This document shows, in pieces, positions 9,780-24,761 of a stretch of 64,000 nucleotides of DNA. This DNA is from Oscillospiraceae bacterium. Its GTDB lineage: Bacteria; Bacillota; Clostridia; Oscillospirales; Acutalibacteraceae. Position numbers and translations under genes: made by a program. How positions within the stretch are numbered: position 1 is the first letter of the stretch; the number at the start of each line of letters is the position of its first letter. The DNA is taken from the NCBI GenBank assembly GCA_910574935.1, contig CAJTCU010000002.1, forward strand, positions 248,001 to 312,000, read 5' to 3'. The notes beneath the pieces are model-generated. The model was not told the origin of the DNA. It did not search any database and saw only the letters and a program-made list of their open reading frames with translations.

Positions 9780-9848
9780 AGGTTTCCCTCCAAGTATTCT
9801 CTCTGTCCCCGCTGGGCAGGCTGGCGGGGTCCGCTATTGGATATGTAC

Positions 9849-9877: not shown

Positions 9878-9926
9878 GTATTTCTTGGCGCAGTTAAAAA
9901 ACCTTCCAAATTTCAGGCCCGCCCCC

Positions 9927-9955
9927 TTGTTCTTTTGCCTCCTTTTTGATAGAAT
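9927..9955 (+). promoter_or_regulatory. Promoter of the GH127 operon
   Basis: TTGTTC (9927-9932), 17-base spacer, TAGAAT (9950-9955), about 80 bases before the GH127 start. It is divergent from the eda promoter. Confidence 0.6.
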
Positions 9956-10034
9956 GTACCTATCCATCTGCCCCACACGCAGCTGCCGGGGCAAAACACA
10001 GGCATTGCCGTAGATGAAAATCAGGAGGTTCTAC

Positions 10035-12080
10035 ATGAACAAAAACTATTTTAGCACTCCCATAGACATAAAGGCTGTAGCCGTAGATGACCCGTTCTGG
10101 AGCGCCTTTCAGGAAACTGTCCGCCGGGAGGTAATTCCCTACCAGTGGGAGGCTCTGAACGACCGGGTAGAGGGCGCTGCCCCCAGCTACTGTATGCACA
10201 ATTTCCGGGCCGCGGCTCAACTGATGGCAGAGAAAAAGGCCAGCCCGGGCTTTCAGGAGCCCGTCTACACAGACCGGGGCTTTGAGGCCCTGCCCCAGGA
10301 CCCCGCCCATCCAGACCCGGACAAGTTTTTTGGCTATGTGTTCCAGGACACGGACTTTTCTAAATGGATTGAGGCCGTGGGCTACTCTTTAACCCAGCAC
10401 CCGGACCCCCAGCTGGAAGAAACCGCAGACCAGGCCATTGATCTGGTCTGTGCCGCCCAGCACGACAGCGGATACCTGGACACCTACTATATCCTGAATG
10501 GCATGGACCGGGCCTTTACCAATCTGAAGGACCACCACGAGCTATACTGCCTGGGCCATTTGCTAGAGGGCGCGGTCGCCTATTACCAGGCCACGGGCAA
10601 GGACAAGCTGCTAAAGGCCGCCTGCCGCTTTGCGGACTATGTAGACTCCCGGTTTGGGCCAGAGCCGGAAAAATGCCAGGGCTACCCAGGCCACGAGATT
10701 GCCGAGATGGCCCTGGTGCGGCTATATGAGGCCACCGGAGAGGAAAAGTACCTGCGTCTAAGCAAATTTTTCATCGACCAACGGGGCGCCGCGCCCAACT
10801 ACTTTTTGCAGGAGGACCAGGCCCGGGCCGCTTATGAGGACCAGCCCGCTCCAGAGGACAACACGGCCCCCTATGCCTATTACCAGGCCCACAAGCCTGT
10901 GCGCCAGCAGGAGGAAGCCTTGGGCCATGCGGTGCGGGCGGGATATCTCTATTCCGGGATGGCAGACGTGGCCAGACTGACCCAGGACCAGGAGCTGTTT
11001 GACGTCTGCCAAAGGCTTTGGGACGAGATTGTGGGAGAAAAGCTATACATTACCGGCGGCATAGGCGGCACGGTCCACGGCGAAGCCTTTTCTTACCCCT
11101 TTGACCTGCCCAACGACACCGCCTATTCCGAGACCTGCGCCGCCATTTCCCTGGCCTTTTTTGCCCGGCGGATGCTGGAAATTCAGCCAAAAGCGGAGTA
11201 TGCCGACGTGATGGAGCTGGCCATGTACAATACCGCTCTGGCCGGTATGGCCCTGGACGGCAAAAGCTTCTTCTACGTAAATCCCCTGGAAGTGAACCCC
11301 GCCGCCTGCAAAGCAGACGCCCGGCTGCGCCATGTGAAGCCCCAGCGGCAAAAGTGGTTTGGCTGCGCCTGCTGCCCGCCCAACATTGCCCGGCTGGTCA
11401 CTTCCGCGGCCCAGTACGCTTTTACCGAGAATAAGGACACCCTGTTCACCCACCTGTACATGGGGGGCGAGATTTCCAAGCAGGTGGGCGGCGCCCAGTT
11501 GCGCCTAAGCCTGGAAAGCCATCTCCCCTGGCAGGGCAAGGCTGCCATGACAGTCCATACGGCAGAGCCCCTTCCGTGCACCCTGGCTTTTCGGGTTCCG
11601 GGCTGGTGCCAGAATCCCAGCATTACCGGTCCCCAGGCCATGGAGCGGGTGGAAAAGGACGGATACGTGTACTTTACCGGCGTCTGGCAGGACGGAGACA
11701 GGGTCTGCCTGGACTTCCCTATGGAGGTGCGCCTGAACGCTGCCAATTCCCGGGTGCGGGAGGACCTGGGCCAGGTGGCAATTACCCGGGGGCCCATCTG
11801 CTATTGCCTGGAGCAGGCTGACAACGGTGAAAACCTGCATTTGTGCAGAGTAGACGCTGGCCAAATTGATAAAGCAGAACTGGAACCAGTCACTATTGGC
11901 GGACAGGAGATGACCTCTATCCATGTGCCTGGTTTCCGTCAAGATCCGCCCGCCCTGGGCGCCCCCCTGTATAACCGCTACACACCGGCAGCGGAACGCC
12001 CTGTTTGCCTAAAGTACATCCCCTACTACGCCTGGGCCAACCGGGGGTTGGGCGAGATGCGGGTTTGGGTACGGGTATAG
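10035..12080 (+). CDS. GH127 beta-L-arabinofuranosidase family (DUF1680)
   Basis: 681-aa member of the (alpha/alpha)6-barrel GH127 family, which removes beta-L-arabinofuranose residues, for example from extensin- or pectin-derived arabino-oligosaccharides. The zinc/cysteine catalytic site can be recognised: Glu and Cys in YSETCAAIS (about residue 365) and the double Cys in WFGCACCPPNIAR (about 447), corresponding to the Glu/three-Cys site of HypBA1. GYPGHEIAEMALVRLY and LYITGGIGG are also family motifs. AGGAGG precedes the ATG at 10035; the ORF is open further upstream without a ribosome site. No signal peptide, so it is intracellular. It is followed after 25 bases by an ADP-ribosylglycohydrolase-fold gene. 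Related GH146 enzymes share these motifs. Confidence 0.88.
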   Translation: MNKNYFSTPIDIKAVAVDDPFWSAFQETVRREVIPYQWEALNDRVEGAAPSYCMHNFRAAAQLMAEKKASPGFQEPVYTDRGFEALPQDPAHPDPDKFFGYVFQDTDFSKWIEAVGYSLTQHPDPQLEETADQAIDLVCAAQHDSGYLDTYYILNGMDRAFTNLKDHHELYCLGHLLEGAVAYYQATGKDKLLKAACRFADYVDSRFGPEPEKCQGYPGHEIAEMALVRLYEATGEEKYLRLSKFFIDQRGAAPNYFLQEDQARAAYEDQPAPEDNTAPYAYYQAHKPVRQQEEALGHAVRAGYLYSGMADVARLTQDQELFDVCQRLWDEIVGEKLYITGGIGGTVHGEAFSYPFDLPNDTAYSETCAAISLAFFARRMLEIQPKAEYADVMELAMYNTALAGMALDGKSFFYVNPLEVNPAACKADARLRHVKPQRQKWFGCACCPPNIARLVTSAAQYAFTENKDTLFTHLYMGGEISKQVGGAQLRLSLESHLPWQGKAAMTVHTAEPLPCTLAFRVPGWCQNPSITGPQAMERVEKDGYVYFTGVWQDGDRVCLDFPMEVRLNAANSRVREDLGQVAITRGPICYCLEQADNGENLHLCRVDAGQIDKAELEPVTIGGQEMTSIHVPGFRQDPPALGAPLYNRYTPAAERPVCLKYIPYYAWANRGLGEMRVWVRV

Positions 12081-12105
12081 GAACCATATAAAGAGGAGGC
12101 CCCTT

Positions 12106-14175
12106 ATGCAAATCCCCATTGATTATCTGGAGCGCGTTTACGCCGGCTGGTATGGCAAAATTATTGGCGTCCGCCACGGCTCCAACGTGGAAGGATGGAC
12201 CTATGAGAAGATTGCCGAGACCTACGGAGAGATAAACGGCTACCTGTTCCACTTTAAAAATTTCGCGGCGGATGACGATACCAACGGGCCTATCTTCTTT
12301 ATTCGGGCCCTGGAGGACTACGCTTGCGGCGAAAGCATCACCCCAAAGAATATGGGCGAGACCGTGCTAAACTATGTGCCCCTGGACCACAGTTTCTTTT
12401 GGCTAGGAGGCTACGGCGTCTCCACTGAGCACACCGCCCTGCTGAATCTGCTCCACGGCATTGACGCCCCCCTTTCCGGCTCGGTGGAGCTAAACGGAGC
12501 CGCTGTGGCCGAGCAGATCGGCGGGCAGATCTTCATTGATACCTGGGGCCTGGTGAACCCCTGCGACTACCGCCGGGCTGCCCGGTACGCCGCCAAAATG
12601 GCCTCGGTCACCCACGGGGGCAACGGCATATATGGGGGCATGTTTGTGGCCGCCTGCGTTAGCGCGGCCTTTGCCGAAAAAGACGTGCAGAATATTATTA
12701 AGGCCGGGCTCTCGGTCATTCCCCCAGACTGCGAGTACGCCCGCATGGCCCAGGCGGTGCGGGCCTTTTACGCCGCCCACCCAGAGGACTGGCGGCAATG
12801 CTTTGCCTATGTGCAGGAGAACTTTGGCTACCACCGCTACCCCGGGGCCTGCCATATCATTCCCAACGCCGCCGTGGTACTGCTCTCCCTTCTCTACGGA
12901 AATGGGGACTTCTCTCGATCCATTAACATCTGCAATATGTGCGGCTGGGATACAGACTGTAATGTAGCCAACGTTGGCTGTATCCTGGGTGTGGCCGTAG
13001 GGCTGGAGGGCATCCACCGGTCCTGGCGAGAGCCTATCAACGACTTTCTGGCCTGCTCCAGCGTATTGGGATGCATGAACCTTCGGGACGTGGCCAACGA
13101 CGCCCTATACCTGGCCTCTCTTGGCTACCGCCTGGCGGGGGAGCCCTATCCCGAAGCCCTGCGTCCCTTCTTAGAGGGCAGTGCGCCCCGGTTCTCTTTT
13201 GTGTTGCCGGAGAGTACCCACAGCTTCCGCACAGCAGGCTGTGACTGCGCATATGAAAATATTGCCGATACCACTGCCCTGGGGGGCCGCTGCCTACGGG
13301 CCTGGGTGCAGGCCTCCCCCACTCCCCGGCGGCTGTACAGGCAAACCTATTACCAGGCCCAGGACTTCAGCGACGACCGCTATTCCCCGGCCTTTACCCC
13401 AGAGGTGTTTCCCGGCCAGCGGGTGGTGCTTCGGGTGAAAACCCAGAGCCCTATAACCCTGCGGGCCTATGCCTATAACCTGTACTCCCAAAGCCACATT
13501 TACGGCGAAAGCGTCCAGGCAGCGGGCTGGACCACCCTGACCCTGGACCTGCCCTCTTCGGACGGGTGCATTGGTCAGGTGGGCCTGGAGCTGCCTGCTG
13601 GAGAAGCCGCCGTGGTGGATCTTGACAGCCTGGACTACCAGGGCGGCCCAGACTATGTGCTGGACTTCTCTAAGGCGGGGCTGGAGCGCTGGACTGCTTT
13701 CCACACCGAGCTAAGCCAGACCTCCACCTCCCAAGGCATTTGGAGTATTGAGAACGGCGCGGCCGTTGGCAGCTGCGCAGACCACGGGGAACTGTTTACC
13801 GGGGGCCGGAACTTTGCCGGTTACAGCGTTACGGTGGACGTTCGGCCCATGCTGGGCCGAACCCACCTGGCGCTTATCCGGGCCCAGGGGAACCTGCGGA
13901 GCTATATGGCAGGCTTTCAAGACCAGCGGCTGGTCATCATCAAAAACCAGAGAGAGCCCAAGGTTTTGGCCAGCATGGAATTCCCTTGGGAAAATGGCAG
14001 ACCCTACCAGCTGACGGTAGAGGCCAAAAGCAACCGCATCTCCCTGGCGGTAGACGGCCAGCCCTGCTTGTGGGCAGAGGACCAGGATCAGCCTTATCTG
14101 ACAGGCTGTTATGGGTTCTCGGTGCAAAAGGGCAGCCGCTGCAAAATAGAGCGGTTCACGGTTCAAAGTTGCTAA
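12106..14175 (+). CDS. ADP-ribosylglycohydrolase-fold protein with C-terminal lectin-like domains
   Basis: The first about 350 residues match the all-helical ADP-ribosylglycohydrolase fold with its metal sites: AADDDTNGPIFF near residue 55, ASVTHGGNGIYGG (about 167) and the C-terminal NMCGWDTDCNVANVG (about 283). The remaining about 330 residues are beta-rich. They include a jelly-roll-like part (about 415-510) and a concanavalin/LamG-like module (about 520-689; FAGYSVTVDVRPM, YQLTVEAKSNRISLAVDG). No signal peptide. The gene has AGAGGAGG before its ATG and sits 25 bases after the GH127 gene, so it likely works on a carbohydrate, hydrolysing an N- or O-glycosidic bond in imported plant glycan fragments, rather than in protein ADP-ribosylation. 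That function is inference. Confidence 0.75.
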   Translation: MQIPIDYLERVYAGWYGKIIGVRHGSNVEGWTYEKIAETYGEINGYLFHFKNFAADDDTNGPIFFIRALEDYACGESITPKNMGETVLNYVPLDHSFFWLGGYGVSTEHTALLNLLHGIDAPLSGSVELNGAAVAEQIGGQIFIDTWGLVNPCDYRRAARYAAKMASVTHGGNGIYGGMFVAACVSAAFAEKDVQNIIKAGLSVIPPDCEYARMAQAVRAFYAAHPEDWRQCFAYVQENFGYHRYPGACHIIPNAAVVLLSLLYGNGDFSRSINICNMCGWDTDCNVANVGCILGVAVGLEGIHRSWREPINDFLACSSVLGCMNLRDVANDALYLASLGYRLAGEPYPEALRPFLEGSAPRFSFVLPESTHSFRTAGCDCAYENIADTTALGGRCLRAWVQASPTPRRLYRQTYYQAQDFSDDRYSPAFTPEVFPGQRVVLRVKTQSPITLRAYAYNLYSQSHIYGESVQAAGWTTLTLDLPSSDGCIGQVGLELPAGEAAVVDLDSLDYQGGPDYVLDFSKAGLERWTAFHTELSQTSTSQGIWSIENGAAVGSCADHGELFTGGRNFAGYSVTVDVRPMLGRTHLALIRAQGNLRSYMAGFQDQRLVIIKNQREPKVLASMEFPWENGRPYQLTVEAKSNRISLAVDGQPCLWAEDQDQPYLTGCYGFSVQKGSRCKIERFTVQSC

Positions 14176-14516: not shown

Positions 14517-15563
14517 TCAGTAGGCAATCTCCATCCACTGCCCTACCTTAGCAGATTTCATAGCGGTCTCGATCACCGCCAGAGTATTGTGGCCGTCTAT
14601 ACCTGTAACAATCGGCCGCCGCGCCTCTACAATAGATGCGATGAACTCATCGATGACCCCGCTTTTCAGCTGGTGGTGATTGGTACTAATATCTCCCACC
14701 GTGTACTTGACCTGAGTGCCGTCCCGCATTTCCAGGACAATATCGTCCGCATAGTCGCCGAAGATCTTCATCACTCCTTTACTGCCATAAATGGTGCTTC
14801 CGTTGTCCTCCGCCCCATAATTGGTCCAGCTAAAATGCATAATGCCCGGCAGGCCGTTCTCCATATTAAACAGGCAGACCGCGTTGTCCTCCAGCTCAAT
14901 GTACCCGCCTGTCTCGTCTCGCTTATCCAAAGTGGTCAGGGTGGTGAACACGTTTCTGATCTCCGAGTCTGTCAAAAAACGGATAAGGTCAATCTTGTGG
15001 GCCCCCAGGTCGCCCATTACGCCGAAATTGGCCTGATCTTTCTTGAAAAACCAGGTGTGGTTTCCCGCGTCTATGCTCCAGCTCTCAGGGCCGGCGTGCT
15101 TAAAATTGCACTGGAAAAACAGTAGGTCCCCAATGGCCCCTTGGTGCAGCAGCTCGTGGGCCTTTAGGTGGGCGCGGATAAGCCTTTGGTTATGGCCCAG
15201 CATCAGGGTTTTTCCCGAACGCTTTTCCGCCTCCAGCATCCGCCGGGACTCCTCTAAGCTTAAAGCCATCGGCTTTTCGCACAGTACATGCTTGCCGGCC
15301 TCCAGCGCCCGGATAGAGGCCTGGGCATGGGTCACGTTGGGTGAACAAACGCTAACCGCGTCCACGGTCTCATCTGCAAAGACCTCTTCCATGCTTTCAT
15401 AGGCCCTGCCGCCATACTGCCGGCAAAGCTCCTGGGCCCGCTGGCGGTCCGTATCAAACACTCCGGCGATTTCCGCGTTGGGGTTCGCCGCGTACTCTGG
15501 CAAATGGCGGCGCTGTCCAATGGCCCCGCCGCCGATTACCGCCACACGAACAATGGGTTTCAT
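14517..15563 (-). CDS. Gfo/Idh/MocA family NAD(P)-dependent oxidoreductase
   Basis: 348-aa oxidoreductase of the glucose-fructose oxidoreductase/inositol dehydrogenase family. The N-terminal Rossmann fold is shown by VRVAVIGGGAIGQRRHLPEY, followed by DAVSVCSPNVTHAQ and the family's catalytic Lys motif GKHVLCEKPMALS (about residue 97). The C-terminal domain carries the HTWFFKKDQANFGVMGDLGAHKIDL region with the active-site Asp/His. Such enzymes oxidise or reduce a sugar hydroxyl, often at C2 or C3. Last gene of the minus-strand locus with the ABC importer, an epimerase-like TIM barrel and a VOC protein. TAAGGAGG precedes the start. Substrate unknown. Confidence 0.88.
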   Translation of the reverse strand: MKPIVRVAVIGGGAIGQRRHLPEYAANPNAEIAGVFDTDRQRAQELCRQYGGRAYESMEEVFADETVDAVSVCSPNVTHAQASIRALEAGKHVLCEKPMALSLEESRRMLEAEKRSGKTLMLGHNQRLIRAHLKAHELLHQGAIGDLLFFQCNFKHAGPESWSIDAGNHTWFFKKDQANFGVMGDLGAHKIDLIRFLTDSEIRNVFTTLTTLDKRDETGGYIELEDNAVCLFNMENGLPGIMHFSWTNYGAEDNGSTIYGSKGVMKIFGDYADDIVLEMRDGTQVKYTVGDISTNHHQLKSGVIDEFIASIVEARRPIVTGIDGHNTLAVIETAMKSAKVGQWMEIAY

Positions 15564-15612
15564 ACTATTTTCCTCCTTACCGCATCGTGAACTACTGCCT
15601 CTGGTCCGGCCT

Positions 15613-16446
15613 TTACAGCCGCAATCCCATTTCTTCCGCCAGCCCCTTTAAGTAGCGGGTGGCCTCTATATAATCCTCTTCCTCAGTCATATGCTCCAGC
15701 ATCAGGCAGGTACGCTCCGGCAGGTTAGAGACGCATTCCAGGTAGGTCCGGTAGTCCAGCCCCCCGGTGCCTGGGCGGCACTCGTCCAGGTGGACGGTGA
15801 GCTTGCCCGAGAGGGTGATGTCCTTGGCGTGGCAGCTGCGGATATGCCCGCCCAGCTTCTGGAACCAGTCCCGAATCACCTCTCCGTTGCGGTAGTAGCG
15901 CCCGGGGCTGTTGATAATATTCACAATGTCCAGGTGTACCCCAAAGCCCGACCGGTCGATGGCCTTCATCAGCTCCAGGTAAGACTCCGGCGTGTCCGGA
16001 TACATCCAGGGCATGGGTTCTAAGGAGTAACAGGTGCTCTGGGGATTCACCCGGTCGATAATCTTCTGGGTGGTGGCCACAATCTCATCAAAAGCCTTTT
16101 GGGTAAAGTTGTCCGGGTGGGGGCCGTCCCACTGCTGGCTGTAGCTGCCCGCTATGTTCACGCAGCAGTTTGCTCCCACGTACTCCGCCAGCTCCAGCTG
16201 GTGCACGGCTTTTTCTATGGCGGCCTCCCGCTGGGCCTTGTCTGGGGACAGGGTGTTGTTCCACACCCCAATCTCACAGATCACCAAGTCCGCCTCTTTG
16301 GCGGCGTCCCGATAGCCGTCGATTTCTTTTTGAGACGCGGTGTAGTCCACAGGAAAGTACACCGCCGAATACCCAGCCTCTTTTGCCGCCTGGGCCCACT
16401 CCCCTGGGGAGCGCCAGGGCTTAAAAATAATTCCGCCAAACCGCAT
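15613..16446 (-). CDS. Xylose-isomerase-like TIM-barrel epimerase/lyase
   Basis: 277-aa sugar phosphate isomerase/epimerase-fold protein. The divalent-metal ligands can be placed: Glu in CYSLEPMPWM, Asp in GVHLDIVNIIN, His in RSCHAKDI and Glu in CLMLEHMTEE. This family includes epimerases, inosose dehydratases and enzymes acting on 3-keto-sugars. Adjacency to a Gfo/Idh oxidoreductase, with no glycoside hydrolase in the operon, makes a role on an oxidised sugar attractive (inference). Start at 16446 with GAGGAGG upstream; 12 bases separate it from the VOC gene before it. Confidence 0.82.
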   Translation of the reverse strand: MRFGGIIFKPWRSPGEWAQAAKEAGYSAVYFPVDYTASQKEIDGYRDAAKEADLVICEIGVWNNTLSPDKAQREAAIEKAVHQLELAEYVGANCCVNIAGSYSQQWDGPHPDNFTQKAFDEIVATTQKIIDRVNPQSTCYSLEPMPWMYPDTPESYLELMKAIDRSGFGVHLDIVNIINSPGRYYRNGEVIRDWFQKLGGHIRSCHAKDITLSGKLTVHLDECRPGTGGLDYRTYLECVSNLPERTCLMLEHMTEEEDYIEATRYLKGLAEEMGLRL

Positions 16447-16458
16447 AGCAGTTCCTCC

Positions 16459-16914
16459 TCAGCGCACGGGCTTGATGTTTAAGTTTACGCCCAGCCGGTC
16501 CTCGCTGTCCACAATGGTCCAGCTGCTGCCAGGATAGACGCCCAGGGTACGGTTTACATCGTAGCCGTTGGCGGCCAGAGACTCTATTACGGCGTCCCGG
16601 TCGCCACCCACCTCAAAGCCGATGTGGTGCACACCGTTGCCGTGCTTCTCCAGGAATTCCTGGAAGGAACTCTCGCCCCCGGCGGGCTGGTGCAGCTCAA
16701 TGACGAAGTTGCCCATGTCAATATTACACACCTTCAGGTCACAGCTGACGGGCTTGCCCCGGTAGGTATAATTTTCATTGCCTTCCAAGTGGCTGTCCCG
16801 GACCTCCGGCACGTCAATGCCCAGGAGGTTGGCCCAGTCCTTGGCGGCGGACTCAATGTCTTTTACAATAATGTTGATTTGGATAAAGCCTTCTTTTTTT
16901 ACGGGTGTATTCAT
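16459..16914 (-). CDS. VOC (glyoxalase/methylmalonyl-CoA epimerase-like) protein
   Basis: 151-aa single-module vicinal oxygen chelate protein, made of two beta-alpha-beta-beta-beta units: GFIQINIIVKDIESAAKDWANLLGI at the start and GNGVHHIGFEVGGDRDAVIESLAANGYDV in the second half. Metal-ligand candidates are the Gln in the first strand, Glu in FVIELHQP and His in VHHIGF. The start at 16914 (MNTPVKKEG) was chosen on family length; an open frame extends to 17106 without a ribosome binding site. A paralog with the same layout lies at 23601, beyond the LacI gene. Function is unknown; isomerase, lyase or epimerase chemistry on a keto intermediate is possible. Confidence 0.82.
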   Translation of the reverse strand: MNTPVKKEGFIQINIIVKDIESAAKDWANLLGIDVPEVRDSHLEGNENYTYRGKPVSCDLKVCNIDMGNFVIELHQPAGGESSFQEFLEKHGNGVHHIGFEVGGDRDAVIESLAANGYDVNRTLGVYPGSSWTIVDSEDRLGVNLNIKPVR

Positions 16915-17149
16915 AGTGAGGTTCCTCTCTATTGTTTTGTTTGGGGTGATACGGGCCCGCCCCCATGGGTGCGGGGGGATGCTATAAGAGGTCCATGGAG
17001 CTTCCGCAGCCCCACACCCCGCGCCAGCGCTGTGGCGGGCGCTGGACCCCCCAATGTATGCCAGCCGCAGCTGGCTCGGCTTACGTGTCCCGCCGAGGAA
17101 GCGCACAGCTTTGCGCGGTTCCGCGAAGTGGATGCAGCGTTTACGTTGT
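16915..17149. other. GC-rich structured intergenic stretch inside the transport operon
   Basis: Holds several short inverted repeats, for example CGCCAGCGCT...GGGCGCTGG (17023-17043), AGCC-GCAG-CTGGCT and GCGCACAGCTTTGCGC. It lies between the permease stop and the VOC start, on the same transcript. It may act as a processing or attenuation region. No gene and no recognised RNA family. Confidence 0.4.
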
Positions 17150-18049
17150 CTAGCCTTTTACGCTGCCCATCACCAGGCCGGTGGTAAAGTACTTTTGCAG
17201 GAAGGGATACACGCACAGCACCGGCACCATGGCCAGGAACATCTGGGCCGCGTTGGTAGTGCGGGCGTTTACCAGATTCAGGTAGGTGCCCATTTCCGCG
17301 CTGATATTGGTTACATTGCGGAAGAAGGCCTCTGGGTTGATGACCACGGTCTGTAAGTAGGTCTGCAAGGGGTAGCGGGTAGTAGAATTCATATAGATCA
17401 TGCCGTCAAACCAGCTGTTCCAGTGGTACACAAAGGAAAACAGCGTTACCGTGGCCAGGGTGGGGGTGCATACCGGCAGAATCACCCGTACCAGGGTAGA
17501 AACATGCCCCGCCCCGTCAATATAGGCGGCTTCCTCCAGTTCCTTGGGCAGGCTGCGCATATAGTTCATAACCACCAGCATGTTAAAAACATTGACCGCG
17601 CCGGGCAAAATCAGGGCAAGAAGGCTGTCCATCAGACCCGTCCACTGGACCACCAGGTAATTGGGGATCAGTCCGCCGTTAAACAAAATCGTGATGACAA
17701 AGAACCAGGAGAACACGTTCCGCGCCCGGAACTCCCTGGTAGATTTAGAGAGCGGATAGGCGGTTAAAACAATAAGAACAATGTTCAGGGCCACGCCCAG
17801 CAAAGTGCGCTGCACGGAAATGCCCAAAGAGGTGATAAACTGGCTATTGGTAAGGATGAAGGAATAGGCCGCGGTGTTAAAATCCACTGGCCAAAAAGTC
17901 ACTTGGTTGGCAGCCACAGCCACCTTGCTGGAAAAAGACATAGCCAACAGGTTGACCATGGGCAAAATGCAAACCAGCGCCATAACGGTAAGCAGCAGAT
18001 AGTCAAAGACCATAAAGACCTTCCGGGAGGGCGACGCTTTTGATTTCAT
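17150..18049 (-). CDS. Carbohydrate ABC transporter permease (LplC/YtcP type)
   Basis: Inner-membrane component of a CUT1 sugar importer, 299 aa with six predicted membrane segments (for example YLLLTVMALVCILPMVNLLAMSF at about 17-39). The cytoplasmic EAA loop that docks the ATPase reads EEAAYIDGAGHVSTLVRVILP (about residues 186-206). The GLIPNYLVV and C-terminal FTTGLVMGSVKG segments are typical of the LplC subgroup, which takes up complex-polysaccharide fragments. Paired with the LplB-type permease upstream (15 bases apart). No ATPase is encoded here, so a shared MsmK/MsmX-like ATPase elsewhere must energise it. Confidence 0.9.
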   Translation of the reverse strand: MKSKASPSRKVFMVFDYLLLTVMALVCILPMVNLLAMSFSSKVAVAANQVTFWPVDFNTAAYSFILTNSQFITSLGISVQRTLLGVALNIVLIVLTAYPLSKSTREFRARNVFSWFFVITILFNGGLIPNYLVVQWTGLMDSLLALILPGAVNVFNMLVVMNYMRSLPKELEEAAYIDGAGHVSTLVRVILPVCTPTLATVTLFSFVYHWNSWFDGMIYMNSTTRYPLQTYLQTVVINPEAFFRNVTNISAEMGTYLNLVNARTTNAAQMFLAMVPVLCVYPFLQKYFTTGLVMGSVKG

Positions 18050-18063
18050 AATTTTTTCCTCCC

Positions 18064-19011
18064 TTAGAATATCCGGTAGCCGGCAAAACGGTCGGCCATC
18101 CAGTAGGATGCGGTTACAAAGATCAGGGACACGCCGGACTTAAACAGGCCCGCGGCAGTAGAAAGGGCAAACTGGGTGCGCTCAATGCCCAGGCGGTACA
18201 CAAAGGTATCCAGAATATCTCCGGTAGAGTACACAGCGGGGCTGTAGAGGTTATAGATCTGGTCAAAGCCGCCGTTGAGAATGTCCGCCATGCTTAACAC
18301 AGTCATCAGCACAATGGTGCTAAGAATGCCGGGCAGAGTGATGTGCCAGGTCTGCTTCCAGCGGTTCGCGCCGTCGATGGAGGCGGACTCATACAGCGCC
18401 GGGTCCACACCGGTCAGGGCGGCCAGGTAGATAACGGACTTAAAGCCAAAGTTTTTCCACACGTCCGTAACCACCATGGTAATGGGGAACCAGAAGGAAT
18501 CCCCCAAGAAGAAGGGCGCCTTTGCCCCAAAAGCCTGGAAAGCCCGGCCCACAATGCCGCTGCTGGGGGAAAGGATGTCTACAAAGATACCCGAGAGGAT
18601 AATCCAGGAGAGGAAGTTGGGCAGGTACACCATGGTCTGGTAGGTGCGCTTTAGGCCAGAGCGGCTTACCTCGTTCAACAGCAGAGAAAAGGTGACGGGC
18701 ACCACAATGTTGCCAATCATCTTGGCTAAAGAGATAACAATTGTGTTGCGGATAACCGGCCAGAAATTGGGCATAGAAAACAGGTTTTGAAAGTTCTTCA
18801 GCCCCACCCATTCCGAGCCAAACAGGCCGTTGGCTGGGTTGAACTTTTGAAAAGCGATCACGGTTCCCACCATGCCGCCATAAGAATAGATGGCCACCAG
18901 AACGACGGCCGGAACCAGCATAATATAAAGGGGCAGCTCCCGCAAAAACTTGTCGGTACGCCGCTGCGGTTTTGGCGCGGCTTTCGCGCCCTGTGTGGAT
19001 TTGCTGCTCAC
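18064..19011 (-). CDS. Carbohydrate ABC transporter permease (LplB/YteP type)
   Basis: 315-aa partner permease. After a charged, Lys/Arg-rich cytoplasmic start it has LPLYIMLVPAVVLVAIYSYGG (first membrane segment), the FQKFNPANGLFGSEWVGLKNF periplasmic-type segment, and the EAA loop YESASIDGANRWKQTWHITLPG. The C-terminus AGLFKSGVSLIFVTASYWMADRFAGYRIF is typical of the family. GTG start at 19011 preceded by AAGGTGGTG. A 193-base gap with a stem-loop separates it from the substrate-binding lipoprotein gene, which likely sets the usual excess of binding protein over permease. Confidence 0.9.
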   Translation of the reverse strand: MSSKSTQGAKAAPKPQRRTDKFLRELPLYIMLVPAVVLVAIYSYGGMVGTVIAFQKFNPANGLFGSEWVGLKNFQNLFSMPNFWPVIRNTIVISLAKMIGNIVVPVTFSLLLNEVSRSGLKRTYQTMVYLPNFLSWIILSGIFVDILSPSSGIVGRAFQAFGAKAPFFLGDSFWFPITMVVTDVWKNFGFKSVIYLAALTGVDPALYESASIDGANRWKQTWHITLPGILSTIVLMTVLSMADILNGGFDQIYNLYSPAVYSTGDILDTFVYRLGIERTQFALSTAAGLFKSGVSLIFVTASYWMADRFAGYRIF

Positions 19012-19128
19012 TTTTTGTTCACCACCTTGGTATATTGGGATACATATTTGACCTGATAAATTACGAAATGAGCTTTGGAGCTAGGTTCTAAAAGAGGCCC
19101 GCGGCCTTTCTCCCCTATTTTAGCCAAC

Positions 19129-19160
19129 AGGCCCGAAGCAAATTTCTTCGCTCCGGGCCT
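19129..19160 (-). promoter_or_regulatory. Intercistronic stem-loop between binding protein and permease genes
   Basis: AGGCCCG (19129-19135) pairs with CGGGCCT (19154-19160), extended by GAAG/CTTC. No T run follows on the minus strand, so an RNA-stabilising or partial-termination element is more likely than a full terminator. Confidence 0.6.
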
Positions 19161-19204
19161 ATTGACTCATCAGTAATTAGGAGTAAATTAGGAGATTAGC
19201 GTAA

Positions 19205-20947
19205 TCATTGGGCCGGATAGAGCTTCTCCAGCTCGTCCAGAGTCTCCTGACCGCCGGCGTTCAGCCACTCGGTCACAAACTGGTCAAAGTGGTCTACAGG
19301 CTTTGTACCGGTAATAATATCGATGAACTCCTGCAAAACCATGTCGCCCAGCACAGAAGAGTTCTGCACCCAGATGTCGGGAATATCGTTGGCCATAATG
19401 TTGACCACTTCCTCCCCGGCCGCCTGATGGGCCAGGTCAATGGGCATAGAGCCATACTGGCTGATCTGCCCCCAGGTGCCGTAGGCATTGGTGTCGTCCT
19501 TCATGGGGCCGTCGCCATAGCCAAAGCCAGAGGAGTAGTTATAGTACTGCAAGGCGGTGCCGCCCAGGTCGCCGGGGTCGCCCTTTTCCAGGGCAGCCAG
19601 AACCTGCTCGGAGAACAGCTCGGTGGGGATGCCAATAAAGATGGGGCAGAAACGGTACTGCTCGTCGGCCCAGTAAGTTTGGAAGTCCTCTTCGCTGCCG
19701 CTGATGGCGGTCTTTTCGTACAGGTTCAAAATCTTGATCAGGGCCTCGGGATGCTCACATTTAGAGCTAATCATAAAGAAGTCAAAGGTCTGGTTGCTTA
19801 GAATACCCAGTTGAGGCTTTGTGCCCTCTACAGTAGGGATCTTATAGGGACGGGTAATGGTACCGTCGGCCTGGTAGGTCAGGTTGAAGGGATGCCAGTC
19901 GCCCCAGCAAGCATGATACATCATGCCAATTTTGCCCGTGGCCACGTCAGTTTCCATGCTAGCCACGTCTTTTACCACAAACTCGGGGTCAAACACTCCC
20001 GCGTCATACAGCTCTTTAGCCACAGTCAGGGCATCTTTACAGGCGGGGTCCAAATAGGAGTTGGTAATCTTTCCGTCCTCGCCCCGGTAGAAAATACCCG
20101 TTTTCTGGAAAGCGGGCACACCATAAGCCGCAAACAGGCCACACAGGGTGCCATAGTTGTTTTGCAGCACATCGCCGGCCAAACCCAAGCCAAAGGTGTC
20201 GCCGTCCACGCCGTTGCCATCCGGGTCGCCGGTGGTGAACAGCTTAGCCAGCTCTACCATCTCCTCCACTGTAGTGGGGGGCTGGGAATTAGTGTTCTCC
20301 AGCCAGTCGTCTCGAATCCATAGGTTGAAAGCCTGGTGGAAGTTATCCGTCATATAGGGATAGCCAAACATTCTGCCGTCAAAAGAAATCCCCTTAAAGC
20401 AGTCTGGGAACTGCTCCTGATAGGCTTTCACCGCATCGGTGGCATACTGCTCGTACACGTCGGTAATGTCCATTAGGTAGCCGGCGTCGTGGGCCTGCTT
20501 CAGGTAAGTGTGGTCCCCGTGGCGGAACACGTCCGGCAGGTCGCCAGAGGCCAGCAGGGTGTTCAGCTTATTATTATACGCGTCGGTACTAATATCGGCG
20601 GTAAAAGCGATCTCTATGTCGATATTCAGCTCTTCCTTAATTTTGCGGGTCCATACGTTGTCCTCAAAGGTGTCGCCGTCTTTAAACTGCTGCACCGCAG
20701 AGGACTGCATGCCCACGGTAATGGTGACGGGCTCCGCATAGGGGGTCAGGGGGCCGTCCTCGGTATTTCCGGTCTGGGAAGATTCGGGGGTAGAGGCGTC
20801 GCCGCCAGAGGTCTCGGCCGTAGAGGACGAGCTCTTATCGGCAGTGGAGCCGCTGCTGCCGGTGTCGCCGCCGCAGGCGGTCAGGCTAAACACTAGGCAC
20901 AGGGCCAGCAGCAGGGTAAGAACACGCTTGCTTAGGTTGGTTTTCAT
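19205..20947 (-). CDS. Extracellular sugar-binding lipoprotein of ABC importer (LplA/YtcQ type)
   Basis: 580-aa solute-binding protein anchored to the outer face of the membrane. A lipoprotein signal is clear: KRVLTLLLALCLVFSLTAC, with Cys25 as the lipidation site, then a Ser/Thr/Gly-rich linker (about 27-65). The mature domain is of the large family-1 type (ITVGMQSSAVQQFKDGDTFEDN..., DDWLENTNSQPPTTVEEM, GMMYHACWGDWHPF) that binds oligosaccharides. AAAGGACGG precedes the ATG. It lies 84 bases after the TolB-like gene and no promoter was seen between, so it is probably read from the LacI-controlled promoter at 22004-22032. Confidence 0.9.
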   Translation of the reverse strand: MKTNLSKRVLTLLLALCLVFSLTACGGDTGSSGSTADKSSSSTAETSGGDASTPESSQTGNTEDGPLTPYAEPVTITVGMQSSAVQQFKDGDTFEDNVWTRKIKEELNIDIEIAFTADISTDAYNNKLNTLLASGDLPDVFRHGDHTYLKQAHDAGYLMDITDVYEQYATDAVKAYQEQFPDCFKGISFDGRMFGYPYMTDNFHQAFNLWIRDDWLENTNSQPPTTVEEMVELAKLFTTGDPDGNGVDGDTFGLGLAGDVLQNNYGTLCGLFAAYGVPAFQKTGIFYRGEDGKITNSYLDPACKDALTVAKELYDAGVFDPEFVVKDVASMETDVATGKIGMMYHACWGDWHPFNLTYQADGTITRPYKIPTVEGTKPQLGILSNQTFDFFMISSKCEHPEALIKILNLYEKTAISGSEEDFQTYWADEQYRFCPIFIGIPTELFSEQVLAALEKGDPGDLGGTALQYYNYSSGFGYGDGPMKDDTNAYGTWGQISQYGSMPIDLAHQAAGEEVVNIMANDIPDIWVQNSSVLGDMVLQEFIDIITGTKPVDHFDQFVTEWLNAGGQETLDELEKLYPAQ

Positions 20948-21031
20948 TCTCTTTCCGTCCTTTCATGTTAAAGTTTTCGCCTGCCCCCCGGGAAAAGACT
21001 TTCCCCGCTTAGGATAGGACAGGCCGGAATT

Positions 21032-21967
21032 TTAGGCCTTTTCAGGCATTATCTCATAGCGGACAAACGCAAACCGCCTGCTGTCCGGAGCCCAGGAGTT
21101 CACATTGATAGTGCCCTGTCCGCCAAAGAGAGCCACAATGGTTTTCAAGGGGCCGCCTGCCGCCGGCATTAGCTTTAGCTCCACATTTTTGTGGGGCACA
21201 TGCTCGCCGGGCTCTACGTCGCCCTTGCGGTACCCCAGCGCCACCACCCACTGCCGGTCTGGGGAGATGTGGGGGAACCAGATGTTCCAGTCCTCTTCAA
21301 AGGTCATTTGGGTCTGCTCTGTACCGTCTGCTTTCATGCGGAAAGCCTGCATCAGCCCCGCGCGTACAGAGTTAAACCAAATATACTCTCCCGCGCTGTC
21401 ATATTCCGGGCCATCGTTCAGCCCCGGGGCGTCGGTCAGCCGGGTCTCTTCGCCGCCCTCTACCGGAATGGTATAGATGTCGAACTCGCCCTTTCTCTGG
21501 GCACAATAGGCCAGGGTCTTTCCGTCTGGGGACCAGCCATGCAAATAGCTGGGGGCCAGGGGCGTTACCAGCCTGGGCACTCCGCCGGAAAGAGGCACCG
21601 TATACACGCGGGACTGGCCGTCCTCTTTGGTGCCGTGGCTCACAGCAATACTCTTACCGTCTGCGGAAAGCACATGGTCGTTGTTGCAGTTTCCCACAAA
21701 ATCTGTTTCCACCAGGGTGCTTTCCTTGGTTTCCAGGTCAAAGCGATAGATACGCCCCTCGCTATTATAGGCCAGGAACTTCCCGTCGGGAGACCAATTG
21801 GGGGCCTCAATAAGATAGTCAAACTCCGCCACAGTCTCCACGCCGCCAGTCTCCATATCATATATCTGAAGAATGGATCGGTCACGAGAACGGTCCCACA
21901 GGTTCAGCTTCTCCAATTCTGCCAAGGCTTCTTTCAGCTCCTTTATGTATTCTGCCGCGCGGCCCAA
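21032..21967 (-). CDS. TolB-like beta-propeller protein
   Basis: 311-aa cytoplasmic protein built of WD40-like/PD40 repeats: [79 protein letters not shown] and [16 protein letters not shown], that is six visible blades. No signal peptide, unlike periplasmic TolB. Similar folds occur in oligogalacturonate lyase and in sugar-locus proteins of unknown role, so a catalytic function on the imported glycan is possible. Start is uncertain: TTG at 21967 has only a distant AGAGGCGG; TTG at 21925 has AAGGAG 12 bases upstream. First gene of the importer operon, directly behind an operator-bearing promoter. Confidence 0.75.
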
Positions 21968-22003
21968 AGGAGCTGGGCCGCACCCGCCTCTTGATTTGAA
22001 TAC

Positions 22004-22032
22004 AGTATAGCATGATAAACGCGCGTTTGCAA
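22004..22032 (-). promoter_or_regulatory. Promoter with LacI-type operator in the spacer (importer operon)
   Basis: Minus strand: TTGCAA (22032-22027), 17-base spacer, TATACT (22009-22004). The perfect 12-base palindrome AAACGCGCGTTT (22017-22028) fills the spacer and part of the -35, so a bound repressor would block polymerase. The same palindrome recurs at 23383-23396. Confidence 0.75.
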
Positions 22033-22134
22033 GAGGGAAAATGCGATTTAGCGATAATGCACGTGGTTTTTATAAAACTTTTGTGATAATTCTACAAACA
22101 TGATTGAAACTTCATATTTTTACCTTTTTCGACC

Positions 22135-22190
22135 TTGACAGACCAACTGGGAAAATGCTAGTATATTTGCGGGTGAATACGCGTTTATTC
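22135..22190 (+). promoter_or_regulatory. Promoter and operator-like site of the lacI-family gene
   Basis: TTGACA (22135-22140), 18-base spacer, extended -10 TGC-TAGTAT (22156-22164). Just downstream, GAATACGCGTTTATTC (22175-22190) shares the half-site CGCGTTTA with the perfect operators on either side, suggesting autoregulation. The rest of the 371-base divergent region up to 22338 holds a leader of about 165 bases and no gene. Confidence 0.6.
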
Positions 22191-22338
22191 CATATCTTTT
22201 CCCGCTTAGCTCGCTGTTCCGCTGTTGCTGTAATGCATATTTTTCCACACTGGGGTCTTTACTTTTTCACCTGTCTGTACTAAAATATAAACAGTTGTAA
22301 ACAGATCGAACAGTGTGACTTAAAGGAGAACGGCATTT

Positions 22339-23385
22339 GTGAAACGGATCAGCAGTAATGATATTGCCCGCCTGGCAGGGGTTTCTCGCAGTACGGTAAG
22401 CCGGGTGATTAACGGCTATACCAATGTACCCCCCGAAACCTACGAGCGGGTTATGAAGGTAATCAAGGAATACCATTATTATCCCCAGGTCTCTGCCCGG
22501 GCCCTTTCCGGCAAAAGTACCAATACCATTGGTCTTTTCTGGGTAGGCCGCAGCCGTCTGGCTATGGACCCACTGACCAGTTCCTATTTTATGCATGTCG
22601 TGGACGCCGCCGCCGAGCGGGGGTACCTGGTTTTGGCCAGTTTTATTGACGACCTAACAGACAGCGCCAATGTTCAGAAAGTGCGGAAGATTTATATGGA
22701 AGGCCGCATCGACGCGGGAATTTTTGTTGGCCTAAGCAATACCGAGCCCCTTGTGGACGAGCTGCTTGAGATGGACAAGATTGTGGGTATTTTTGATTAT
22801 TTCCATGAGGGCGAGGACCAGCCCCACCGGCTTTCTTCCAATTTTGAGCGGGATTCTGGCGAGGCGGTTATTGACTATCTCTATAGCTTGGGCCACAGGA
22901 AAATCGCCATTATCGACGGGGACCTCAGCCGCCTAAGCTGTATCCACCGCCATGAAAGCTACATGCGGGGCATGCTGAAGCACAGCCTTCCCCTAAAAAA
23001 CCAGTGGCTGGCCTACGGCGGTATTGTAGAAGAGACCGGCTATCCCGCCGCCAAGCAACTGCTGGAAAACAGCCTGGACGATTTGCCTACCGCCATCTGT
23101 GCCAATAATGACGGTGTGGCTTTTGGGGTGTACCGCGCCTGTGCTGGGCTGGGGCTGCGTATTCCCCAGGACATCTCTGTGGTTGGCATGGACGCCCGCC
23201 CCGAGGGCAAAACCGCTTCTCCCCCGCTGACCACTTATTATTACGACTTTCAGCGGCTGTTCGCGTCTCTAACCGACCGAGTCATCGACACCATTGAGGA
23301 AAAGCCCGACGTGCTTCAGGCAGATTTTATCCCCGGCCAGCTGCTGGTGCGGGAATCCACGGCCCCACCCAGAGCAGAAGCTTAA
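22339..23385 (+). CDS. LacI family transcriptional regulator
   Basis: 348-aa repressor. The N-terminal helix-turn-helix is canonical (SSNDIARLAGVSRSTVSRVING, residues 3-24), with the hinge helix around SARALSGKST (about 54-63). The C-terminal periplasmic-binding-like effector domain covers about 65-340 (GLFWVGRSRLAMDP, AIIDGDLSRLSCIHR, AICANNDGVAFG, ISVVGMDARPEG). GTG start preceded by AAAGGAGAA. It is divergent from the importer operon. The perfect palindrome TAAACGCGCGTTTA covers its own stop codon and lies before the downstream VOC-SDR genes, so it probably controls both flanks. The effector is likely a sugar or breakdown intermediate. Confidence 0.92.
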   Translation: MKRISSNDIARLAGVSRSTVSRVINGYTNVPPETYERVMKVIKEYHYYPQVSARALSGKSTNTIGLFWVGRSRLAMDPLTSSYFMHVVDAAAERGYLVLASFIDDLTDSANVQKVRKIYMEGRIDAGIFVGLSNTEPLVDELLEMDKIVGIFDYFHEGEDQPHRLSSNFERDSGEAVIDYLYSLGHRKIAIIDGDLSRLSCIHRHESYMRGMLKHSLPLKNQWLAYGGIVEETGYPAAKQLLENSLDDLPTAICANNDGVAFGVYRACAGLGLRIPQDISVVGMDARPEGKTASPPLTTYYYDFQRLFASLTDRVIDTIEEKPDVLQADFIPGQLLVRESTAPPRAEA

Positions 23386-23396
23386 ACGCGCGTTTA
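23383..23396 (+). promoter_or_regulatory. LacI-type operator before the VOC-SDR genes
   Basis: Perfect 14-base palindrome TAAACGCGCGTTTA overlapping the stop codon of the lacI-family gene, identical over 12 bases to the operator at 22017-22028. No clear promoter hexamers could be fixed in the 200 bases before 23601. Confidence 0.7.
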
Positions 23397-23600
23397 TTTC
23401 AAAAAACTCTTTTACAAATTGCCCTTTGCTGTCCCCCATTGCCATAGAACCTCTCATATTTATAAACTCAAGTAATGAAGCATCGTGCAAACAGTAAGGC
23501 TATTGGCCAGGCCCAGTTCAGATGTATTGTCAGAGACAGGCCGCGGCGCTCCATGGCTTTGTGGCTGAAAAAACATAAGAAGAAAGCGAGGAATATCGTC

Positions 23601-24062
23601 ATGGCAGGAATCATTAACAACAATCTTTTAGCGCAGGTGGGTTTTATCGTCCGGGATATTGAGGTGACCAAGAGAAAGTTTGCCGAATTTTTCGGCGTGC
23701 CTGTGCCGGACCATTTTGACGGCGGCAAATATGAAGTCACCGGCACTACGGTAGAGGGCCGGCCTGCCCCAGACGCCAACTGCTGGATGGCCTTTTTTGA
23801 CGTGGGCCCTGGCATTCAGATTGAGCTCATCCAGCCCAACGGTGTGAAGAGCACCTGGCAGGACTTTCTGGACCAGCACGGCGAGGGCATCCACCACATT
23901 GCTTTCCAGGTGAAGGGCATGGATGAGAAAATTGCCTCCTGCGAAAGCTTCGGTATGAAATGTGTGCAGCGGGGCAAGTACGGCGGTGGCAATGGCGAGT
24001 ACGCCTATATGGACTCCCACGGTGACCTGAAATGCTTGATCGAGCTGCTGGAAAACTACTAA
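23601..24062 (+). CDS. VOC (glyoxalase-like) protein, second paralog
   Basis: 153-aa vicinal oxygen chelate protein. Two repeats are visible: LLAQVGFIVRDIEVTKRKFAEFFGV and GEGIHHIAFQVKGMDEKIASCESFGM. Candidate metal ligands are Gln in the first strand, Glu in IQIELIQP, His in IHHIAF and Glu in LKCLIELLE. It shares the IELxQP...HHI(A/G)F pattern with the paralog at 16459, but the two differ at most positions, so they are probably not recent duplicates. Start at 23601, where GAGGAATATCGTC precedes ATG; the frame is open upstream to 23475. Likely member of the same regulon. Confidence 0.82.
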   Translation: MAGIINNNLLAQVGFIVRDIEVTKRKFAEFFGVPVPDHFDGGKYEVTGTTVEGRPAPDANCWMAFFDVGPGIQIELIQPNGVKSTWQDFLDQHGEGIHHIAFQVKGMDEKIASCESFGMKCVQRGKYGGGNGEYAYMDSHGDLKCLIELLENY

Positions 24063-24074
24063 GGGAGCGTGTTT

Positions 24075-24761
24075 ATGAGTAATATTATTGTAATTGGCGC
24101 ATCCCAGGGCTTGGGGCTGTGCTTGGTGCGCGGTCTTTTGTCCCAGGGCTGTCAGGTGGCGGCGGGGGTGCTAGGCGGCGGAGCCCTGGCTCCCTTACAG
24201 GCGCAATACGCCCAGCAGCTGCTGGTTTTTCCCGGGGACGTCACCCACATGGAACAGCTGACAGCGGGGGCCAAGGCCTGCCAGGACTTTTTTGGCCAAG
24301 CCGACGCGGTCTGTGTGGTGGCCGGTGTACTACTGCCCGGCGACCGGGAGAAACTTTTGCACCAGTGTGACCTGGCGGAACTAGAGGCTACTTTCCAGGT
24401 AAACGCCTTTGGACCCATCCGGGCGGCCCAGGCCTTTTTGCCCGGGCTAAAGCCCGGCGGGCGCTTTTTTGCCATTACCTCAGAGGGGGTGGGTGTAAAA
24501 AGTTGCGGCACCTGGGTGCCCTGCTACGGTCTTTCCAAAACCGCGGCCACGAAGGCCTGCGGCATTCTCAACGCCTCTTATCCAGACGCAGACTTCTACG
24601 CTGTGCACCCGGGCCGCATGAACACAGAAATGGGCCGCACCACTGCGCAGATTGAGCCTGAAGAGACCGCCGCCGCCCTATGCAAAATGCTTACCGGGCA
24701 GGTGCCCCTGCACCGGGAGAACTGGTACATTGATTACAAGGGAGAGCCTATGGAGGCATAG
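24075..24761 (+). CDS. Short-chain dehydrogenase/reductase
   Basis: 228-aa SDR. The nucleotide-binding Gly motif is GASQGLG (residues 8-14) and the catalytic residues are Ser in ITSEG and Tyr/Lys in YGLSK (about residue 155). AVHPGRMNTEMGR follows as in classical SDRs. ATG at 24075 lies eight bases after AAGGGA; a GTG six bases earlier is possible. It starts 12 bases after the VOC gene and shares its transcript. Probably reduces or oxidises a keto/hydroxy intermediate of the locus; substrate unknown. The strong terminator at 24777-24816 closes the unit. Confidence 0.85.
   Translation: MSNIIVIGASQGLGLCLVRGLLSQGCQVAAGVLGGGALAPLQAQYAQQLLVFPGDVTHMEQLTAGAKACQDFFGQADAVCVVAGVLLPGDREKLLHQCDLAELEATFQVNAFGPIRAAQAFLPGLKPGGRFFAITSEGVGVKSCGTWVPCYGLSKTAATKACGILNASYPDADFYAVHPGRMNTEMGRTTAQIEPEETAAALCKMLTGQVPLHRENWYIDYKGEPMEA

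Follow-up and report, generated by a model that had tools for sequence, protein, structure and literature searches.

A predicted LacI regulon for sugar uptake with paired VOC proteins and no recognised glycoside hydrolase in an Oscillospiraceae bacterium

How might a bacterium break down an imported sugar compound with a set of genes among which no glycoside hydrolase is recognised? This question is raised by a locus at positions 14517-24761 of a stretch of 64,000 nucleotides (64 kb; hereafter the window) from an Oscillospiraceae bacterium (assembly GCA_910574935.1, contig CAJTCU010000002.1, positions 248,001 to 312,000), whose genome comprises 4.17 Mb in 109 contigs. An earlier note on the window had proposed that an imported glycoside or uronide is oxidised here and then cleaved by elimination. 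Analysis of open reading frames (ORFs) and Pfam matches showed ten protein genes in two divergent units around a single LacI gene. The locus appears to be separately regulated, has no recognised glycoside hydrolase, and is most likely a variant keto-glycoside or keto-acid route. With a little less than even confidence, we read it as a self-contained, LacI-switched locus in which a sugar compound is imported by an LplABC-type transporter and broken down in the cytoplasm through keto-sugar intermediates. The genes and putative operators are as follows, where ABC stands for ATP-binding cassette, VOC for vicinal oxygen chelate and SDR for short-chain dehydrogenase/reductase.

14517-15563, minus strand: Gfo/Idh/MocA oxidoreductase (GFO; Pfam PF01408, 1e-35, and PF22725)
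15613-16446, minus strand: xylose-isomerase-like TIM barrel (AP_endonuc_2; Pfam PF01261, 1.6e-23)
16459-16911, minus strand: VOC1, Glyoxalase_4 family (Pfam PF13669, 5.6e-17)
17150-18049, minus strand: ABC importer permease, LplC-like (ORF, gene order and homology)
18064-19011, minus strand: ABC importer permease, LplB-like (ORF, gene order and homology)
19205-20947, minus strand: solute-binding lipoprotein of 580 aa (Pfam SBP_bac_1, 1.4e-21)
21032-21967, minus strand: TolB-like propeller of the Atu1656/2ojh type, PD40 (2ojh, E 3.4e-73)
22018-22027, unstranded: putative LacI operator AACGCGCGTT, on the TolB side; motif also in orthologous loci
22176-22185, unstranded: putative LacI operator AATACGCGTT, between TolB and LacI
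22339-23385, plus strand: LacI-family regulator (Pfam PF00356 and PF13377)
23385-23394, unstranded: putative LacI operator AACGCGCGTT, at the end of the LacI gene, upstream of VOC2
23601-24062, plus strand: VOC2, Glyoxalase_4 family (Pfam PF13669, 4.6e-20)
24069-24761, plus strand: SDR oxidoreductase (Pfam PF00106, 2.7e-21)

The minus-strand unit is transcribed in the order propeller, solute-binding protein, two permeases, VOC1, TIM barrel and Gfo/Idh, and the plus-strand unit comprises LacI, VOC2 and the SDR. ORFs and Pfam matches bear out the gene list of the earlier note (propeller, LplABC-type importer, two VOC proteins, TIM barrel, Gfo/Idh, LacI and SDR), and the ORF map agrees with its placing of one LacI gene between a minus and a plus unit. 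Neither permease had a Pfam match at E <= 1e-10, and both were named from gene order and homology; their homologues, in the same order, are present in the related loci L008, L011, L014, L017 and L027 (loci of other genomes are designated by L and a number). VOC1 probably starts at the ATG at 16911 and VOC2 at the ATG at 23601. No glycoside hydrolase or sugar kinase was recognised by ORFs and Pfam inside 14517-24761. The earlier note had said as much, and its statement holds only within these coordinates, because genes for a GH127 protein, a GH31 protein and a PfkB kinase adjoin them.

The operator occurs more often than expected by chance. The motif AAYRCGYRTT is present at three sites in the window, all flanking the TolB, LacI or VOC2 genes, compared with 0.60 expected matches, and three or more matches were reached in 2 of 100 shuffles of the window. 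Its TTTA-extended form, AAYRCGYRTTTA, gave four matches at three places in the 64 kb against 0.05 expected from shuffles, all beside the LacI gene, which substantiates the operators described in the earlier note. The whole genome contains six matches to the extended form, four of them at the locus, and ten to a reversed control pattern; because of this control, the two matches elsewhere are no more than chance would give, and what stands out is where the matches lie, not their number by itself.

Related loci carry the same motif. The window and L008, L014, L017, L021, L028 and L114 together have 20 sites, compared with 2 for the reversed pattern; 15 of these 20 lie in the set LacI-flanking stretches, and the remaining five are near LacI or VOC2. 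The operator upstream of VOC2 was also found in L008 and L021. In two Anaerocolumna genomes (5.5 and 6.4 Mb), a stricter form, AAACACGTGTT, is confined to the locus, with 4 and 3 matches (control, 0 and 2). All ten loci with a LacI match of at least 270 bits have the motif (the window, L008, L014, L017, L021, L028, L029, L114, L120 and L121); L121, a copy with 98% identity from within the genus, counts for little as an independent case. Among the other loci searched, one of 19 (L052) has a site, and three of the 19 (L011, L015 and L027) end before the LacI position. The locus is therefore, on this sequence evidence, a local regulon of its own, with one LacI and one predicted operator shared by both units and conserved.

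The conserved co-occurrence of these genes, which the earlier note had suggested looking for, was found in relatives. Genes in relatives were called by ORF and homology; most neighbours were named from clusters or on inspection by eye, and Pfam was applied to a selection of them. The statement that no glycoside hydrolase was recognised in the operator-bearing units, in the window and in relatives, depends for the relatives on this naming. The arrangement SDR-VOC2-LacI / TolB-SBP-LplB-LplC-VOC1-(GFO)-TIM (SBP, solute-binding protein) is complete in L008, L014 and L017, and is matched up to the contig ends in L011, L015 and L027. A Gfo/Idh orthologue (442-448 bits) is present in L008, L011 and L015 and absent from L027, L028 and the units of the two Anaerocolumna loci, L014 and L017. 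L028 has VOC2 between the permeases, a PF06439 gene after the TIM barrel and no SDR, and in L021 a PF06439 gene stands in the place of the SDR. The L021 contig itself looks misassembled at 3056-4483, where TolB is short, the importer genes are missing and the VOC1 ORF begins like the binding protein.

A second arrangement, AraC-SBP-permeases-GFO-TIM-SDR-VOC1-VOC2, occurs in Lachnospiraceae (for example L068, L069, L072, L075 and L077); L078, which shares it, had no SDR or Gfo/Idh called. Further arrangements are seen in the Bacilli loci L052, L053 and L114. The nearest homologues of the TIM barrel come from metagenome-assembled genomes labelled Ruminococcaceae UBA1417, Gallacutalibacter and Neglectibacter. 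The locus is patchy in its distribution: the TIM barrel was detected at 1e-20 in 7 of 60 relatives, and LacI at 1e-80 in two genomes each from the genus (29 searched) and the class (391 searched), the genome of the window being counted in each.

We then considered which reactions the conserved enzymes may catalyse. According to the earlier note, the Gfo/Idh protein would make a 3-keto-glycoside from which the TIM barrel, or a propeller resembling polysaccharide lyase family 22 (PL22), would eliminate the aglycone; we consider this improbable. Some features of the TIM barrel do fit such a role. E143, D173, H206 and E251 are invariant in a 55-row alignment and lie at the ends of β5-β8 in an AlphaFold model (pLDDT 97), so that the metal ligands come from β5, β6, β7 and β8 as in the C-glycoside and O-glycoside eliminases (CGEs and OGEs). 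In addition, DgpA1 and DgpA are the second and third PDB matches of the Gfo/Idh protein, among generic Gfo/Idh proteins, and YcjR and AtHYD appear, among many others, in the fold search with the TIM barrel. The β5 ligand is a Glu, as in the CGEs, which have a Glu at the place of the AtOGE ligand His132 together with a conserved catalytic His; the catalytic residue of AtOGE, His134, follows this ligand by two positions (PMC10628242, in the part concerned with these sites). The corresponding stretch of the TIM barrel is E143-P144-M145, and M145, two residues past the β5 ligand, is invariant in the 55 homologues, so Met replaces the eliminase catalytic His in all of them. Ketose epimerases use a metal quartet with two Glu. 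Because of this two-Glu quartet and Met145, epimerase or isomerase chemistry is preferred over elimination for the TIM barrel. Foldseek gave similar scores for 5tnv, Art22, 3tva, tagatose epimerase, YcjR and AtHYD, identifying the generic superfamily only, and the fold alone therefore does not pick the reaction. Elimination, as far as these residues indicate, is the weakest part of the earlier proposal.

The other candidate for an eliminating enzyme, the propeller, had been likened to oligogalacturonate lyase, the PL22 enzyme. This likeness did not hold, as the protein is of the Atu1656 (2ojh) type: its profile matched 2ojh at 2.6e-115 compared with 2e-5 for PL22 (3c5m), and in a Foldseek search with its model (pLDDT 84.8) 2ojh ranked first (TMt 0.89) and PL22 structures ranked 36, 37 and 49 (TM 0.49-0.50). 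No PL22 Pfam family was listed for the locus proteins at E <= 0.1. We rejected the assignment, since PL22 is no closer than many other propellers by profile and by Foldseek. Polar residues invariant in 12 propeller sequences (N57, N95-N96-D97-H98, H143, D185, H233, H256, Q284 and N288) look like a candidate active or metal site. A search for 'Atu1656' in the open-licence PMC literature found no paper. A TolB-like protein 61-66% identical to that of the window is encoded in Parabacteroides distasonis (L090, 6923-7837), outside any sugar locus, which argues against a role tied to this pathway alone and suggests a wider role for the family.

The pair of VOC proteins was examined in the same way. 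A tree built from 57 VOC proteins of the loci placed the two window proteins, VOC1 and VOC2, in different supported clades, each spanning the first two arrangements; the proteins labelled VOC2 in L046, L054 and L052 branch outside the main VOC2 clade. We searched 20 genomes chosen from those of 80 loci with TIM-barrel homologues (TIM loci), and the VOC2 profile at 1e-12 matched 17 of them, with 32 matches in total. Two VOC-profile matches lie no more than 9 kb apart in 12 of the 20, a count that shows that the VOC genes go together and not how frequent they are, because the genomes were picked for their TIM loci. The pair was also seen away from the TIM barrel: in genome G067, and as a divergent VOC2/VOC1 pair at 8165-9400 of L113, with no TIM barrel, LacI or operator nearby and the TIM barrel of that genome elsewhere (L022).

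Q12, E75, H98 and E148 of VOC2 are invariant in 26 aligned rows, and we take them to be metal ligands from the pattern of the superfamily. In VOC1 the first ligand varies and the last Glu is not kept, so the full set of four is found in VOC2 only. The PDB entry closest to both profiles is 3gm5 (VOC2, 8e-58). As methylmalonyl-CoA epimerases, the activity of their best family model (TIGR03081), VOC1 and VOC2 were rejected, at 42.6 and 49.2 bits against a cut-off of 114.95. Some VOC enzymes epimerise cyclic keto-polyols, for which a literature search gave no paper, and among the matches listed in the open-licence PMC literature none was seen to describe paired VOC proteins in a sugar locus. Membership of both proteins in the Glyoxalase_4 family would also suit glyoxalases that protect the cell from reactive carbonyls during sugar uptake. 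We regard this as very improbable, given that the best family model is an epimerase, itself far below cut-off, and that the two genes are placed, under local control, next to genes for sugar uptake and are the only two matches to the VOC2 profile in the genome at 1e-5.

Genes in related loci provided clues to oxidation and cleavage. A Gfo/Idh gene, as in 3-keto-glycoside pathways, is present in the window, L008, L011 and L015. An FMN dehydrogenase gene, belonging to the lactate-oxidase family, is found no more than 2.6 kb from the TIM barrel in 13 of 80 loci, and follows an operator in L029. PF06439, the 3-keto-disaccharide hydrolase family, is encoded in the VOC2 unit of L021 and after the TIM barrel in L028, and a ThuA gene follows the SDR in the operator-linked unit of L114. 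In the account given in PMC9007349, PF06439 is tied to the hydrolysis of 3-ketotrehalose, and its role in that of 3'-ketolactose is a proposal. The recurrence of PF06439, ThuA, FMN dehydrogenase or Gfo/Idh genes in the units of relatives is the reason for the keto-glycoside reading. Thus, the hydrolase-free route of the earlier note stands as far as one conserved unit with no recognised hydrolase and with these genes in relatives is concerned, but not in its elimination step.

From the gene set, operator, linkage, families and metal ligands described above, we infer the reactions, the substrate and the order of steps as follows. An LplABC-type transporter would import a glycoside, an oligosaccharide or a sugar acid. 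A ring ketone, most likely at C3, would be made by the Gfo/Idh protein here, and by an FMN dehydrogenase or possibly the SDR in relatives. The carbonyl would acidify the neighbouring C-H, allowing the putative metal enzymes (the TIM barrel, VOC2 and perhaps VOC1) to epimerise or isomerise the keto-sugar. Cleavage of the glycosidic bond would take place in the keto form; PF06439 or ThuA-family proteins would do this in some relatives, and the TolB-like propeller possibly does so here. The SDR would reduce the product to a sugar usable by housekeeping genes. A wider version is doubtful in our estimate: an undescribed pathway through keto-sugars, shared by several groups of bacteria, with the paralogous VOC proteins and the TIM barrel together epimerising or cleaving a keto-glycoside or keto-uronide and the propeller acting as a glycan-cleaving enzyme of a new kind, all with no glycoside hydrolase.

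A number of observations weigh against this mechanism. At least one VOC gene is present in 30 of the 80 TIM loci and two in 19, and the proposition that the TIM barrel always occurs with a VOC protein was accordingly rejected; a VOC gene is present in 7 of the 15 closest loci (>400 bits) that extend 5 kb or more upstream, and the partner in some VOC-less loci is an FMN dehydrogenase or a GH3 protein. L120 has the same LacI, VOC2, SDR and operator with no TIM barrel or VOC1 in view. The Gfo/Idh protein is not essential to the unit, because it is absent from both Anaerocolumna loci, where the SDR is the only oxidoreductase recognised in the two units. None of the eight non-permease proteins of the window locus had a Pfam match to PF06439 or ThuA, so the cutting enzyme suggested for it is a guess. 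Elsewhere, TIM homologues stand beside GH8, GH10, GH43, GH1 (by eye), GH3 and GH4 genes, and the core may thus work with hydrolases in other lineages. The solute-binding protein is nearest in the PDB to AlgQ2/AlgQ1, a weak match of 66 bits. Genes for the metabolism of sugar acids are repeatedly seen near the core, and the keto intermediates may therefore be those of an acid pathway.

This last possibility needs to be weighed on its own. An acidic oligosaccharide would be imported, and the TIM barrel, VOC proteins and SDR would convert a keto-uronate or keto-aldonate towards 2-keto-3-deoxygluconate, for which KduI/KduD are the model; we hold this to be possible but rather unlikely. AlgQ2/AlgQ1 bind alginate. 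Genes of the MR/MLE family are present in L052, L053, L091 and L095, those for mannonate dehydratase (UxuA) and, below cut-off, a DkgB-like aldo-keto reductase in L095, and one of the altronate dehydratase family (UxaA) in L026. The FMN dehydrogenases in 13 of the 80 loci may be counted on the same side, as may the 2-keto-3-deoxy-6-phosphogluconate (KDPG) aldolase and PfkB kinase genes about 5 kb away in the window. In L029, GH88 and GH29 genes at 3356-6955 lie within 5 kb of the unit and convergent with it, and a second GH88 gene is located about 9 kb off (19419-20489), the unit there being LacI/FMN dehydrogenase/TIM/SDR. These two GH88 genes hint at unsaturated uronides and, with the other neighbours, at an acidic sugar. 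Against this, the PfkB and aldolase genes and all of these L029 hydrolase genes have no operator, and inspection by eye of the first few genes next to the two Anaerocolumna loci revealed no dehydratase, sugar kinase or sugar-acid aldolase; L014 has a class II aldolase-like ORF at a distance of 9 kb. Further, KduD is not among the best 25 of 135 families for the SDR, and PF06439 and ThuA point to glycosides.

The genes adjoining the locus raise the question of whether a hydrolase outside it does the cutting. A GH127 gene (10014-12080, plus strand) and a gene for an ADP-ribosylglycohydrolase-like protein (12106-14175, plus strand) converge on the minus unit. If these two products (10014-14175) cut the substrate, the keto enzymes would process the freed sugar, which we think improbable. 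The end of GH127 is 2.4 kb from the locus, and L085 has, at 4131-11833, a GH127 homologue (837 bits) in the neighbourhood of FMN dehydrogenase, AraC, Gfo/Idh, TIM barrel, VOC1 and VOC2 genes. L085 is, however, the one locus of the 80 with GH127 above 100 bits, and no operator lies near the GH127 gene of the window. Homologues of GH127 are present in 8 of the 9 genomes of close-homologue loci (the exception being that of L028), where they are separated from the locus, either by lying on a different contig or, in the two complete Anaerocolumna chromosomes, by about 64 kb or more. The conserved linkage to a hydrolase that would have spoken against the earlier note was therefore not found, and GH127 was rejected as a member of the unit on operators and on linkage in relatives.

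Pfam matches at 3123-9779 identified genes for a KDPG aldolase, a PfkB kinase, a second TIM barrel, a class II aldolase and GH31, which with GH127 appear as a separate sugar cluster at 3123-12080. Against the NCBIfam model for aceric acid hydrolase, the GH127 protein of the window scored 419 bits (cut-off 950). The product of 12106-14175, encoded in tandem with it, has an ADP-ribosylglycohydrolase fold joined to a C-terminal domain that weakly resembles DUF6250, which is an unusual combination in a sugar locus; an assignment of the C-terminal part to PF06439 was tried and failed. Hydrolase and other catabolic genes were also noted around relatives. A GH2 gene lies 6 kb from the L028 locus, and in L120 genes for an RraA-like protein and a metallo-beta-lactamase-fold protein (16304-18097) follow the operator-bearing ABC unit. 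Blautia-type loci (L063, L066, L076, L079 and L080) have the TIM barrel and SDR, some with Gfo/Idh and VOC2, near GH8/GH10/GH43-like genes (by eye), and are possibly a route for a xylan side group.

More distant counterparts were found on plasmids. In Qingshengfaniella (L091), A. larrymoorei (L095) and R. indicum (L096), genes for VOC2 homologues with 31-36% identity adjoin sugar ABC genes and a gene annotated as a sugar phosphate isomerase/epimerase, and L091 and L095 also have TolB-like genes. The Ti plasmid of A. larrymoorei has consecutive PF06439, Gfo/Idh and TolB-like genes 5.5 kb beyond VOC/TIM-barrel/VOC genes, which speaks for the keto-glycoside reading. The TIM barrel there is a PF01261 protein but not a recognisable relative of that in the window (23.5 bits), a further point against a shared pathway, and the plasmid search with the TIM barrel of the window listed no Agrobacterium or Qingshengfaniella. 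Conversely, R. leguminosarum (L088) has a TIM homologue (40%) with two VOC-family genes 1.4 kb on that are distant at best (33 and 10 bits), and R. indicum (L089) a TIM homologue with no VOC genes in view. We therefore dropped the Rhizobiales plasmids as carriers of the same core: the theme recurs there more than the same genes do.

How does the locus compare with known systems? The YcjR cluster has a sugar ABC importer, a dehydrogenase and a reductase, and is in this respect like the locus in the window. E. coli YcjR, a 3-keto-D-glucoside 4-epimerase (6wn6), is also a TIM barrel, but with 15% identity, and its system differs from the locus in lacking the VOC pair, the propeller and the LacI operator system. 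The 3-keto-glycoside pathways (the BT2157 3-ketotrehalose hydrolase, and LacABC with DUF1080 in Caulobacter), as presented in the main text of PMC9007349, share Gfo/Idh, epimerase-like and reductase genes with the locus, and PF06439 with the units of L021 and L028. They are set apart by the two VOC proteins and propeller of the window locus, its lack of a PF06439 match and a Gfo/Idh gene that is dispensable here; that main text does not mention VOC or glyoxalase. The levoglucosan system LgdA-B1-B2-C, as described in the text of PMC10066097, resembles the locus, by family and length, in its ABC importer, Gfo/Idh protein and PF01261 TIM barrel of ~275 aa. The locus differs in having one TIM barrel, the VOC pair and an SDR replacing the second Gfo/Idh, and VOC and glyoxalase go unmentioned in that text also. 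With the C-/O-glycoside eliminases (PuCGE/DgpC type and AtOGE), on the description in PMC10628242, it shares a metal-binding TIM barrel and a DgpA-like Gfo/Idh partner, but has neither the catalytic His nor a recognised small second subunit.

Keto-glycoside routes break glycans without glycoside hydrolases, and annotation based on hydrolases misses them. In Clostridia and Bacilli, such loci could be recognised with the VOC1-VOC2 pair as a sequence marker. The operator, as seen in Anaerocolumna, defines a minimal predicted regulon of importer, propeller, two VOC proteins, TIM barrel and SDR. Solving this regulon would give a role to two orphans of structural genomics, the 3gm5-like VOC proteins and the 2ojh-like propeller, whose structures are the closest to the VOC1/VOC2 and TolB-like profiles of the locus.

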